Shown here piece by piece: positions 3,455 through 30,767 of a stretch of 35,776 nucleotides of DNA. The DNA is from Candidatus Altimarinota bacterium. GTDB lineage: Bacteria; Patescibacteriota; Gracilibacteria; Absconditabacterales; Absconditicoccaceae. A program made the translations under genes and the position numbers. The notes under the pieces were generated by a model. The model worked only from the letters and a program-made list of their open reading frames with translations, searched no databases and was not told where the DNA came from. Positions within the stretch are counted from its first letter, which is position 1. Every line of letters begins with the position of its first letter. The DNA lies in assembly GCA_027013285.1 (NCBI GenBank), contig JALUXR010000057.1, positions 1 to 35,776 on the forward strand, in the 5' to 3' direction.

Positions 3455-4723
3455 TTATATTTTCAAACTCCAATCTATAATATTTTTAATTTCAATTCAT
3501 TTGTCTTCTTTTTTTCATTCATCCAAAGTTAAAATAATTTTTTTGTAGTTGTCTTTTTGTTTTAAAAGAGGGTTTATTTCTCTATTATATGTTTGCTTAT
3601 TTTTTAAAGTATAACTTACTTGAAAATATGTAAAAGTATTGTTTTTTTGTGTAAAAAAGTCTATTTCATAGTTTGAATCTGTAATTACATAAATTTCGTA
3701 TCATCTTCTTTTTAATTCTAAATATACATAATTTTCTAAAATTTTTTCTATATCATTGTTATTTGAATAAATATTTCTTATTCATAAATCATAAGTATAA
3801 AATTTTCTATTTGATTTCAATATTTCTTTTGTTTTTGGATTTACAGATGGTAATTTATTTATTAAAAAACTATTTTCTAAGTAAGTAATGTAATTATCTA
3901 CTGTATCATAATCTAAATTTTTTATATCTTGTTTTAAATATTTTAAAATACTGTTTATGCTTAATAAAGAGCAAGTAGTAGAATATATAAATTTTAAAAG
4001 TGAAGAAATAAACATAGATTTTCTAATTTTGTATCTTGTAATAATATCTTTAAATAAAATACTATCAACAAGAGTTAAAAGATAGTTCTTTTTTGTATTT
4101 TCATCATCAATTTTAAGTATTTCAGGTAAAGCTCAAAAAGTAATATATTTTTGAAAATAATTTATTTTTTTTGTATCAAGTTTAGAATTTATTTTTAAAT
4201 TATTAAAATTTAAGTAATCTTCAAAACTTAAAGGATATATTTGTAAAGAAATAAATCTTCAAGTTAGTAGAGTAGATAGTTCACTTGATAATAAATTTGA
4301 ATTACTTCAAGTTAAAAAAATATGAGCTTTTTTTCAATATTTTTCATTTATTGTTCTAACAAATTTTTCCCAACCTAAAATATTTTGTATTTCATCTAAA
4401 AATATGTAAAAATCTCATTTTTTATAAATATTTTTTAAATAAAAATCAAAAATATCTCATAATAGGTTTAAAGAAGGATTAATTCCAAGTCTATAATCTT
4501 CTAAGTGTAAATAAAAAATATTTTCTTTATTGATTCATTGTTTTATTTTTTTATCTATAAATTGTTTTAAAATAAAACTTTTTCATACTCTTCTTAATCA
4601 AGTAATTACTTTTATTAGATTTGAATTGTCCAATATTTCAAGTTTTTCTAAATAATCATTTCTAATAAATCCGATATCTCAAAATCATTCACTAATATAA
4701 TCAAAAAATATTTCATTTTTCAT
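3455..4723 (-). CDS. AAA ATPase with DUF4143-type C-terminus
   Basis: TGA=Gly: MKNEIFFDYISEGFGDIGFIRNDYLEKLEILDNSNLIKVITGLRRVGKSFILKQFI...FYIFLDEIQNILGWEKFVRTINEKYGKKAHIFLTGSNSNLLSSELSTLLTGRFISLQIYPLSFE...YEIDFFTQ...; Walker A GLRRVGKS, Walker B FLDEIQ, sensor TGSNS. Confidence 0.92.
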
Positions 4724-4764: not shown

Positions 4765-5010
4765 TTTTTGATGATTATACAATAGATTTTTTTGTAATAA
4801 AAAAAGAAGCCTTTGATAGCTTCTTAATATTATTATTCATCATCAAGAGATTTGAATTTTCCTGATCTTTCTTTGATAATTGCTTCTTTCATACTATTTG
4901 GAACAGCTTCATATTTTTCAAATACCATAGAGTAGTTTCATCTACCTTGAGTATTTGATCTTAAATCTGTAGCATAACCAAACATTTCTGATAATGGTAC
5001 AAATGTTTTT
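4765..5010. repeat. Direct repeat copy B (functional fusA 3' end + terminator)
   Basis: Same block as copy A in direct orientation; the two copies bracket the AAA ATPase gene. Confidence 0.95.
4797..4825 (-). terminator. Rho-independent terminator of fusA
   Basis: Minus strand AAGAAGCTATCAAAGGCTTCTTTTTTT: 7-bp stem plus T-run directly after the fusA stop. Confidence 0.75.
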
Positions 5011-24530: not shown

Positions 24531-25619
24531 TTATTTGTTGTTAGAATCTAAATTTTCTATGATTCCAGCTACTCATATCATAGCTGCATTATCTGTAGAA
24601 TATAAGTTCTTTTTCGGTGTGTAAAAGTTTTTTATTTTAAATTTTTCCTTATGGTTTATTATAAATATTTTTAATTCTTCGTTTGCACTTACTCCGCCAA
24701 CTAATGCAATATTTTCTATTCAAAAGTGTTTTGAAGCTTTTAATAGTTTTTTTCATAAAGTTTCCACTACAGCTTGTTCAAATTCATATGCAATATTACA
24801 AATAGTTTGTTCATCTAAATCTTCTCACATTTCTTTTTTTATTTCTTGTATTTTGTAGTTTGCCGATGCTTTTAGTCATGAAAATGAAAAATTAAATTCT
24901 TTCTTTTTTAACCAAATTCTTGGGAAATCAAAATTCATTTTTTTTCATAATTTAGCTTTATCTCATATCCGTTTTCCTCCAGGATAAGGTCAGCCTAACA
25001 TTCTTGAAACTTTATCAAAAACTTCACCAGCAGCATCATCTAATGTAAATCAGATTTTTGTGATTTTTAAATTTCAAATTTTTGTAATTATATCATCTTG
25101 ATTTAAACTATAGTTGTTTTGTAGCTGTTCAGTGTAAGAAGCAAGTTCGTCGATATTATTTTCTTCTTTTGTATTTTCAATTATGTAAAGATTATTATGT
25201 CATCCAGAGACTGTAAGAGCTATGAAAGGAAATTGAATATTGTTTATGTTCTCATCACAAAGTATAGACAAAATATGTCAGTTGATATGATGAACAGGTG
25301 TAAGTTTTTTTTCTAAAAATAGTGAAAGTGTATTTGCTAAGGTTCTTCCTACAAGCAAACTTCAAGGCAACCCAGGACAACAAGTATAAGATATGAAATC
25401 AACTTTTTTAATTTCTTCAATTCAGATTTCGTCTAACAAATCTATAACTTTACTTTCATGTAATCTACTAGCTAATTCAGGAATAACTCATCCAAATTTT
25501 GTATGTTCTGCTATTTGTGAGTGTAATAAAATTTTTTCAACATCAAAAAATCAATTTTTATAAGATATAATTGCAAGTGAAGTATCATCACAAGATGTTT
25601 CTATAGCTAAAGTTTTCAT
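24531..25619 (-). CDS. tsaD: tRNA N6-adenosine threonylcarbamoyltransferase TsaD
   Basis: MKTLAIETSCDDTSLAIISYKNGFFDVEKILLHSQIAEHTKFGGVIPELASRLHESKVIDLLDEIGIEE...; canonical TsaD N-terminus. Confidence 0.95.
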
Positions 25620-25689
25620 AAATTTATTTTAAAATTAAATTAGTCTGTGGTAAATAGTAATTATGTTTTATTTAAAATATAAGAATTAT

Positions 25690-25905
25690 ATACATTTTTT
25701 ATTTTATATGTTCTTCTTTATCTTGATACAAAGAAGAACCAAGAAAGATCAAGATACATTACCAGATTAAATTGTTTTAACCTTACTGGTTACAGTCTTC
25801 GACTGATAAATACTGACTCATTCTTATGATTTAGATATTTAGTTGATAGGCTTGCTCCCTCCCACAAGTGGGCTCCGGGGTCGCAAGCCATTGTTGAGTT
25901 TTTAT
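25690..25905. ncRNA. unassigned structured RNA with H-type pseudoknot and GC-rich hairpin
   Basis: GTTCTTCTTT-ATCTTGATAC-AAAGAAGAAC (10-bp stem) whose loop is complementary to downstream ATCAAGATA; ACCAG/CTGGT; CAGTC-TTC-GACTG; GGCTTGC...CCCAC-AAG-TGGG...GCAAGCC. No long ORF. Strand undetermined. Confidence 0.5.
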
Positions 25906-26023
25906 GAATAAATATAATATATTATAGTTTCTATAATTTTAAAGTTTTGTAGTTTATCTTAATGTATGTGGTTATTTGTTTGTCATTATATTTGTATCGG
26001 AAATATGTATTAAACTATTTTTT

Positions 26024-26779
26024 TTAATCTGTAATCCGTCATTTATTTTCATATTCTTTGATAAACTTTTTTATGTTAGCATGATACATATTCTCCAGAC
26101 TTCAAGGTTCTGTAGCTTCGATTACTTTCATCAAATTTCAAATTTCTTTTCTCTTCGATTTTTCTCAAATAGGGCAAGTACAACCAGAATATGGGATTTT
26201 CTCATTCAAAACTAAATTCATAATATCTTTTTCTCTTACAAAACTCATAGGTCTAATGATAGTTAAATCTCATCTTTTCATTTTATTTATTGGAGGCATA
26301 AGTGTTGCATTTCTATTTATTATCATATTCATAAATAGAGTAGTTATACCATCATCCAAATGATGTCAAAGAGCTATTTTGTTAAATCACCATTTTTCGC
26401 AAAGCTTAAACATAGAAATTCTTCTAGCATAAGAACACCATTGACAAGAAATTCAAATACCATCTTCAAGCCTACTTCATTCTGGTAAATTAATTTCTAT
26501 ATATTCCATATCTAATCATATTTTATCAAAAAACTTTTGTTGTTCAGTAAAATCTACATCACATCTCATAAGAAATTTTTTATTCATATAGACTCATTTT
26601 ACTTCAAAATTTAAGTGAGATCTATCTCTAAGTTCACATAATAAATTTGCCAAAAGCATGCTATCTTTTCATCATGAAATTCAGATTAAAATTTTATCAC
26701 CGTCTTGAATCATATCAAAAGTCTTGATAGCTTTCATAGTTTTGCTTCTTATAGTTTTATGTAATTTTGTTTGTTCCAT
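26024..26779 (-). CDS. TtcA-like tRNA thiolation PP-loop ATPase
   Basis: MEQTKLHKTIRSKTMKAIKTFDMIQDGDKILIGISGGKDSMLLANLL...CSYARRISMFKLCEK...HHLDDGITTLFMNMIINRNATLMPPINKMKRGDLTIIRPM...YSGCTCPIGEK...; SGGKDS motif and Cys positions. Confidence 0.82.
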
Positions 26780-28714: not shown

Positions 28715-29879
28715 CTTTTTGATGAAAAAACTCTTAGAAAAATTACAATTTAAAAAGCCCCATAGAAGATTATAATATTAGGTGACAAGTAATATTATAA
28801 ATTTTACTCCTTAATCTATGGGACTTATGAAAGATAATAAAGTAAAAGATTATAGATACAAGAAAAAGTTGAATGAAAATGAGAGAGTACTAATAGAACA
28901 TTATTATACAAAAAAGAAAATTAAGAATTACAGCTATATAGCAAAAGAAATATGAAGAGATAGGAAAACAATAGAAAGAGAAATAAAAAGAAATAGATAC
29001 TCAAATGTATGGTGACATTGGGTATATAAAGCAGATATAGCAAAAAAAAGAAACTATAAAAGAAGGATAAAATCAAATAGGAAACATACAAAATTGTTTA
29101 CACGAGAATGAAGAAAATTTGTGGAAAAGATAAAAGAAGCTATGAAAAAAGAATGATGGTCTATAAGTGCAAGTATAGGGAGATATGAATATGAAAAAAA
29201 CAAAAAAACAAAAATAGCTATAAGTACAATGTATAGATATGCTAGAAAGTATGATAAAGAATTAGAAAAGATGCTATTGTATAAAAGTTGGTGATATAGA
29301 AAATGAGAATATAACTATTGAAAGAATAGTAAACTATTAGAATTAGAGAGTATAGAAACTAGAGAGGAAGTAATAAATAATAGAGAAAGAAAATGAGATT
29401 ATGAAGTAGACTTGATAGTAAGTAAAAAGAGTAAAAGTGTGATATTAAATATAATAGAGAGAAAAAGTAGAAACATACTAACTAAAAGACTACCAAACAA
29501 AGAGAAATTAACAGTAAAAGAAGCAATAAGAGAATTACTGAAATGAAAAAAAATATATAGTATAACAACAGATAATGGAACAGAATTTACAGATTTAATA
29601 GATATATGTAAGGAATTGTGAATAAAGTGATATAGATGTCATCCATATAGTAGTTGGGAAAAGTGAAGTGTAGAAGTACATAATAGATATATAAGAAGAT
29701 ATATACCAAAATGAGCAGATATAAATGATTATACAGATGAAGAACTAAAGAAAATAACTAATAAAATTAATAGTTTACCAAGAAAGATACATTGATACAT
29801 AACACCTGAAGAAATATTTTATGAAAAAACTATTAAATATTTCTAAAATTTTTGGGGCTTTTTGATGAAAAAACTCTTA
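28715..29879 (+). mobile_element. IS30-family insertion sequence with flanking 22-bp direct repeats
   Basis: CTTTTTGATGAAAAAACTCTTA at 28715-28736 and 29858-29879; internal 11-bp inverted repeat AAAAAGCCCCA (28752-28762)/TGGGGCTTTTT (29853-29863). Confidence 0.8.
28830..29847 (+). CDS. IS30-family transposase
   Basis: MKDNKVKDYRYKKKLNENERVLIEHYYTKKKIKNYSYIAKEIGRDRKTIEREIKRNRYSN...RKGDYEVDLIVSKKSKSVILNIIERKSRNILTKRLPNK...ITTDNGTEFTDL...HPYSSWEKGSVEVHNRYIRRYIPKGADINDYTDEELKKITNKINSLPRKIHGYITPEEIF; IS30 HTH and DDE motifs. Confidence 0.93.
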
Positions 29880-29954: not shown

Positions 29955-30767
29955 ATGAAACAAATAATAAATGTAAAATGAAGTGAAATTACTTTGTATT
30001 CTAAAAATAAAGATGATTTTATTTCTTTGACTGATATTGCGAAGTTTAAAAATGCTGAACATACAGGTTTAGTTATTTCTCACTGGTTAAGTACAAGATA
30101 CACAGTCGAGTTTATTTGATTGTGGGAACAATTAAATAATAAAGATTTTAATGTAACTGAATTCCGTAACATTAAAAATGAATCAGGCTCTAATGGATAT
30201 GTCTTATCTTGAAAACAATGGATAGAAAAAACAAATGCAATTTGAATAATATCAAAAGCAGGTCGTTATTGATGAACATATGCACACAAAGACATAGCTT
30301 TTGAATTTGCAAGTTGGATTTCAGCAGAATTTAAATTATATTTGATTACTGAATTCCAAAGATTAAAAGAAGAAGAAACAAAATGAAAATCTCTTGAATG
30401 GTCAGTAAAAAGGGAATTAACAAAAATAAATTATAAACTTCAAACAGATTCAATAAAAAATTATTTAATTCCAAGTTTAGAAGATTTTAAGAAAAAATAT
30501 ATTTATGCAGATGAAGCAGATTTATTAAATATTATAATTTTTTGAAAAACAGCAAAAGATTGGAGAGATGAAAATGAAAATAAAAAATGAAATATCAGAG
30601 ATTATGCAACAATAGAACAACTTTTACTTTTGGCTAATTTAGAAAACTTGAATTGAGAATTTATAAAACAATGATTAGAAAAAGAAAAAAGGTATGAATT
30701 ATTAAGTGAAATAGCTAAAAATCAAATAAAGATTTTGTTTGATAATAATTTTAAAAAATTAAAATAA
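29955..30767 (+). CDS. KilA-N domain protein
   Basis: MKQIINVKGSEITLYSKNKDDFISLTDIAKFKNAEHTGLVISHWLSTRYTVEFIGLWEQLNNKDFNVTEFRNIKNESGSNGYVLSGKQWIEKTNAIGIISKAGRYGGTYAHKDIAFEFASWISAEFKLYLITEFQRLKEEE...; typical KilA-N. Confidence 0.93.

Follow-up and report, generated by a model that had tools for sequence, protein, structure and literature searches.

What occupies the gap between tsaD (24531-25619, minus strand) and ttcA (26024-26779, minus strand) is the question raised by this locus. The window (the whole 35,776-nt stretch of DNA analysed here) comes from a Gracilibacteria genome of 830 kb in 103 contigs (G000), and its genes remain uninterrupted only when TGA is translated as glycine (code 25), a codon that occurs 16 times in tsaD alone. 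The standard code is apparently used by other families of this class, as judged from tsaD matches without TGA. The original prediction was that the gap, described as large (~400 nt), contained an intergenic RNA of unrecognised family with a textbook H-type pseudoknot and several hairpins. We measured the gap at 404 nt and found every sequence piece named in that prediction on the plus strand at the positions given: a stem strand GTTCTTCTTT (25710-25719) and its partner AAAGAAGAAC (25730-25739), the loop ATCTTGATAC between them (25720-25729), an 8-nt spacer CAAGAAAG (25740-25747), a segment complementary to the loop, ATCAAGATA (25748-25756), and the hairpins ACCAG/CTGGT (25761-25765 / 25786-25790), CAGTC/GACTG (25793-25797 / 25801-25805) and GGCTTGC/GCAAGCC (25849-25855 / 25883-25889).

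The pseudoknot is genuine, yet as a lone structure it is barely beyond chance: knots of equal quality (10 bp + 7 bp) appeared seven times on the plus strand when the window was dinucleotide-shuffled 60 times, an expectation of 0.12 per shuffled window. Its significance comes from its being repeated. The support beyond chance is comparative, and consists of three genomic copies, covarying helices and a reversed control pattern that was nearly without matches. No family in Rfam 15 reached the gathering threshold when both strands of the window and of 33 loci at which related copies lie were searched, and a permissive scan of the window gave chance-like matches only, which agrees with the family having gone unrecognised before. 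A search for tRNA and tmRNA genes found none, nor could an intrinsic terminator be identified at the element.

Copies and insertion sites in the Gracilibacteria genomes

Three dispersed copies of a stretch of ~180 nt were identified in the window genome, namely the window copy, C75:26410-26587 and C79:607-488, and the window and C75 copies share 94% identity over the first 178 nt. The repeated element common to C75 and C79 corresponds to 25708..26003 (minus strand) of the window, so that the conserved feature, previously thought to end at 25905, reaches about 26003. In a sister species of the same genus (G001), the tsaD-ttcA spacer is only about 23 nt and the element is absent; the gap in the window is thus large because an element has been inserted there. 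Comparison with this empty site (L382) delimited the whole inserted DNA as about 375 bp at 25649..26023, with its RNA strand being the minus strand, co-directional with both ttcA and tsaD. The left and right flanks, when matched to the empty site, share nine bases of it, as expected of a target duplication; the probable 9-bp target-site duplication consists of a left copy TTAGTCTGT (25640..25648) and a right copy TTAATCTGT (26024..26032, the end of ttcA), which differ by one mismatch and have the length of the exact duplications found in Filimonas (see below).

The C75 and C79 sites were also empty in G001, and two sites carrying the element in G001 (C159 and C241) were without it in G000. All five comparable insertion sites were therefore unshared between the two species, which indicates either movement or rapid turnover of the element, and its mobility is well supported. 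In being dispersed, multi-copy and inserted at unshared sites, it behaves as a miniature inverted-repeat element (MITE) would. Thus, the original description as an intergenic RNA was right as to a structured, non-coding sequence, but this sequence is a dispersed mobile repeat and not specific to the locus. As separate observations, a HIT-family gene was found in G000 (L422, C55) at the site of one G001 element copy, and a second repeat family (TTGTCATCCCGGACTTGAGCCAGGATCT and variants) adjoins two of the three element copies (L035:240-350; L036 ~4370-4400 and 4770-4850).

Folding strand, covariation and a candidate triple helix

The folding strand of a structured repeat can be recognised from its wobble pairs, since G.T wobbles of the folding strand show as A.C mismatches on the opposite strand. 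On the plus strand, on which the original prediction had been made, 133 distinct knots (99 stems) contained 35 A.C against only four G.T combinations, and this excess of A.C assigns the folding strand to minus. When five multi-copy families were folded separately as the minus strand, an excess of G.T over A.C was clear in four (G300, G893, G297 and G120), and the counts in G290 were too few to be informative; Flavobacterium and G326 also agreed with the minus strand (20 vs 3 each). The assignment to the minus strand is well supported, and it makes the knot the 3' part of the element, with everything else lying 5' to it, opposite to the earlier reading. Such wobble asymmetry may serve as a cheap computational means of telling which strand of a structured repeat is functional.

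On the minus strand, the modelled order of parts is the 5' strand of a stem P1, a domain with a GC-rich hairpin, the 3' strand of P1 and then the 3' pseudoknot. P1 is a long-range stem that would close the 5' domain, with GAUACAAAUAUAAUGAC (25982..25998) as its 5' strand, GUCAGUAUUUA (25807..25817) as the main part of its 3' strand and GUAUC (25753..25757), which adjoins the pseudoknot, as the outer part. RNAalifold on six G000 and G001 copies recovered both P1 and the GC-rich hairpin (25849..25889, minus strand; CCCAC/GUGGG core), and pair counts and compensatory changes among the copies supported the main part of P1 as well as the hairpin. The outer part was defined by alignment and pair counts, and one of its U-A pairs has become C-G in the C75 copy. 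Over the six copies the named structure was 96% paired, eight pairs were changed on both sides (3.6 when shuffled) and the covariation score was 0.221 (control 0.107). The ACCAG and CAGTC hairpins listed originally are present but unconserved, as they belong to a segment of ~46 nt (25758..25803, minus strand) that the alignment revealed in only two of the six copies, the window copy and C75. A promoter-like site (26013-25985, minus strand) overlaps P1, and a start there would come too late for making the whole fold.

The 3' pseudoknot (25710..25753, minus strand) is composed of helix S1, pairing CUUGAU (25753-25748) with AUCAAG (25727-25722), the pyrimidine loop L1 CUUUCUUG (25747-25740), and helix S2, pairing GUUCUUCUUU (25739-25730) with AAAGAAGAAC (25719-25710). 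The knot previously called textbook is therefore real, but its conserved loop helix measures just 6 bp (CTTGAT/ATCAAG). Among 26 gap-poor sequences, 9 of 11 S2 pairs were changed on both sides, with a covariation score of 0.449 (0.110 when shuffled); it should be noted that these sequences were preselected for the stem, which biases the paired percentage, the sliding control being unbiased. S1 was constant by search design in this set, and its support comes from Pseudomonadota variants (GCGAC/GTCGC, TGCCAG/CTGGCA and GTGGC/GCCAC) and from alternative forms within one genome (TTGTGC/GCACA and TCGCGC/GCGCG). Thus, two interleaved helices covary, as is characteristic of an H-type pseudoknot, and the complementary arms are conserved through covariation. 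Filimonas and Neolewinella share this architecture, except that the helix closing immediately before the knot is longer. In several genomes the knot forms a sharp 3' boundary, and in some lineages the strand runs past it. Taken together, the minus strand is under selection to form two folded units, a domain closed by P1 and, 3' to it, an H-type pseudoknot.

In telomerase RNA and the SAM-II riboswitch, H-type pseudoknots contain pyrimidine-motif triple helices, a pyrimidine L1 running across the major groove of S2. A similar arrangement, with U.A-U and C+.G-C triples, can be predicted here, although the present knot has no sequence or Rfam relationship to these RNAs and is carried by a mobile repeat. 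In the correct orientation, the pyrimidine-rich L1 is placed to cross the S2 major groove, and its UUUCUU is aligned in parallel with the AAAGAA in the purine strand of S2, as the two types of triple would need. The loop and the stem also show a mirror relation, for example AAAGAAGAAC|CAAGAAAG in the window, AAAGAAACGAAG|CAAAGAAAA in G036 and AAAAAGG|GGAAAAA in G020. A-tract lengths of L1 and its S2 partner were correlated over 104 knots (rho 0.67). Matches of G-interrupted tracts were found in 11 of 19 knots, as compared with 2.9 when partners were shuffled over all knots; with the shuffle confined to the 19 G-interrupted knots, the expectation was 10.3 and the excess not significant (2169/5000). 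Judged from sequence, formation of a pyrimidine-motif major-groove triple helix by the pseudoknot appears moderately supported, so that the original description as an H-type pseudoknot, itself backed by covariation, was probably incomplete.

Ends, mobilisation and alternative readings

The ends of the element were clearest in Filimonas, in which 14 of 20 copies had inverted repeats CATTRTTGTCCGANTAAA at both ends (score at least 12/17). Perfect 9-bp direct repeats flanked 5 of these 14 copies, perfect repeats of the other lengths between 6 and 12 bp were absent, and at least eight matches were present in 6/14 own-flank pairs as compared with 4/182 mixed pairs. In Orenia, 18-bp inverted repeats (GATATTGCGACACTTTTA) were clear in most copies. 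In the window copy no inverted repeats could be recognised, and neither inverted repeats nor a target duplication could be found in Flavobacterium copies; thus, MITE status is demonstrated in one or two lineages only. By end structure, it is the Filimonas copies alone that are shown to be MITEs, and the same class is suggested here, supported by the inverted repeats of Orenia and the duplication at the window site. The genes around the copies shared no ORF family, a search between the conserved loop halves found no ORF-bearing autonomous version, and no transposase could be tied to the element. Elsewhere in the window, a transposase resembling the IS30 family by eye (28818-29846) is followed by a KilA-N-like protein, also assigned by eye (29955-30767).

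On the basis of these results, we regard it as probable that a small non-autonomous, MITE-like DNA transposon carrying a structured RNA has been inserted immediately downstream of the ttcA stop codon. Its movement, by either cut-and-paste or copy-in, would depend on a transposase supplied in trans. ERIC/IRU, NEMIS, Correia, RUP and BOX are repeats with hairpin folds that are restricted to narrow taxa. The present element resembles them and MITEs in being short, intergenic, multi-copy and ORF-free, with folds that would sit in transcripts, and its Filimonas copies further resemble MITEs in their inverted repeats and target duplication. Unlike ERIC-type repeats, it has a core that is found in several phyla, and at the end of this core lies a pseudoknot whose loop mirrors its stem. 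REP/BIME elements with RAYT transposases (PMC3733652, PF01797) are likewise intergenic, palindromic, of high copy number and genus-dependent in sequence, whereas the present element needs no GTAG/CGTC tag, and is larger (about 250-380 nt) and pseudoknotted.

A REP-like element that folds as single-stranded DNA and is mobilised by a Y1 (RAYT/IS200-type) transposase could account for some of these features, because folding of one strand at these copies fits RNA and single-stranded DNA alike and Y1_Tnp matches were found in 10/18 element-bearing genomes as compared with 14/42 other searched genomes. However, Y1_Tnp was absent from G000, G020, G120 and G140, the last two of which are near-complete and have eight and five copies, respectively, and the inverted repeats and 9-bp duplications of Filimonas are unexpected for IS200/605-type transposition. 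Thus, RAYT association as a requirement was rejected, and we consider mobilisation of this kind unlikely. Rather improbable is the suggestion that there is no selection on RNA at all, in which case palindromic DNA would spread by transposition and the wobble asymmetry would reflect strand-biased mutation, such as deamination of the non-template strand. The elements are indeed multi-copy and related, and transcription-linked deamination acts in the same direction and could add to the asymmetry; but the latter was observed in 99 distinct stems at fixed positions in many genera and in both genomic orientations, and neither the two-sided compensatory changes nor the co-variation of loop and stem tracts would be explained. 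It is quite improbable that the element is a retro-mobile, SINE-like RNA whose 3' pseudoknot is recognised by a trans-acting reverse transcriptase: folding at the RNA level and the terminal knot as a sharp boundary in several genomes would be in line with it, but the copies are full length at both ends, retro-type 5' truncation was not seen, and a DNA transposase is indicated by the inverted repeats and by duplications fixed at 9 bp. Finally, despite the strong one-strand structure and an RNA strand co-directional with tsaD, a conserved regulatory RNA of the tsaD/ttcA locus (a trans-acting sRNA or riboswitch-like leader) is very improbable, and a cis-regulator largely refuted, given that the sister species lacks the element at this locus, other copies lie beside unrelated genes with no associated gene family, and copies are oriented at random with respect to the gene on their 3' side (71 vs 61 of 132) instead of being fixed before one family.

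Distribution across bacteria and possible role

Of 288 genomes of the class, 18 contained the pattern CTTGATNMAAAN{8,16}AAANATCAAG, as a rule several times and on either strand, and the reversed control pattern had zero matches in the same 288 genomes. As the stem length of pattern matches was bimodal, real knots could be separated from coding coincidences. A scan of named genomes yielded at least 118 loci; among the matches listed, 82 had a real stem, including 72 from Bacteroidota, 4 from Fusobacteriota, 2 from Balneolota and 1 each from Planctomycetota and Gracilibacteria. Copy numbers were 8 in Orenia, 51 in Neolewinella (including head-to-tail arrays), 67 in the 1 Mb of Cardinium and 80, the maximum, in Filimonas; both strands were occupied in high-copy genomes, and the reversed control was again zero there. 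Within Bacteroidota, 21/198 genomes were positive, and variant forms of the knot occur in Pseudomonadota. On plasmids we found one related knot (Aureibacter) and one Pseudomonadota-type match (a Variovorax replicon); a search of phages for related knots found none.

With regard to function, the structured RNA of the MITE-like element probably folds within read-through transcripts. The 5'-side gene was co-directional with the RNA in 84/132 cases (p=0.002), a modest bias obtained with mechanical ORF calls and from related copies, whose counts are not independent events; the 3'-side gene showed no such bias. Such a bias is consistent with a fold formed when transcription continues from the upstream gene (ttcA here) into the element. 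Once transcribed, L1 would enter the S2 major groove to form U.A-U and C+.G-C triples, and the compact 3' structure could then block 3'-to-5' exonucleases or insulate the upstream transcript in another way, which would make insertions behind genes tolerable or mildly useful. Such protection or insulation is what we infer to have kept the structure in spite of sequence drift.

A triple helix near the RNA 3' end is also a feature of MALAT1/ENE-type elements, sometimes in eukaryotic transposon RNA, for which a stabilising role has been proposed. The present knot would be similar in offering a candidate triple helix near the 3' end of an RNA in a mobile element, and differs in being bacterial, in having no poly(A) clamp and in that the strand extends past it in some lineages. 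We tentatively raise the possibility, which is the less likely outcome, that these repeats form a multi-phylum class of mobile elements, previously undescribed, in which a 3' triple-helix RNA core protects read-through mRNAs as a counterpart of the eukaryotic transposon-RNA stabilisers and host-specific transposases are recruited. A literature search, with subscription journals outside its scope, found no description of the element, and such repeats probably lie unlabelled between the genes of many annotated bacterial genomes. Should the fold function as RNA, transposition would have carried a triple-helix module into several phyla, among them candidate-phylum bacteria with a changed code, and the tolerance of insertions between genes could be accounted for in this way.

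Several lineages showed additional features. In Neolewinella aurantiaca (L177), head-to-tail arrays consist of at least five units of about 750 bp with the element in each, and other arrays of this species have units of about 450 bp. Pseudomonadota copies in G893 and G853 (L456-L467) are flanked on both sides by AACAGC-type simple repeats, and two of them have an additional hairpin within the pseudoknot spacer, with S1 still paired. Finally, a loop AACTCGCTNCGCTCARACA with a closing stem of variable sequence is common to many Bacteroidota and Pseudomonadota copies (L192, L213, L162, L344, L351 and others).
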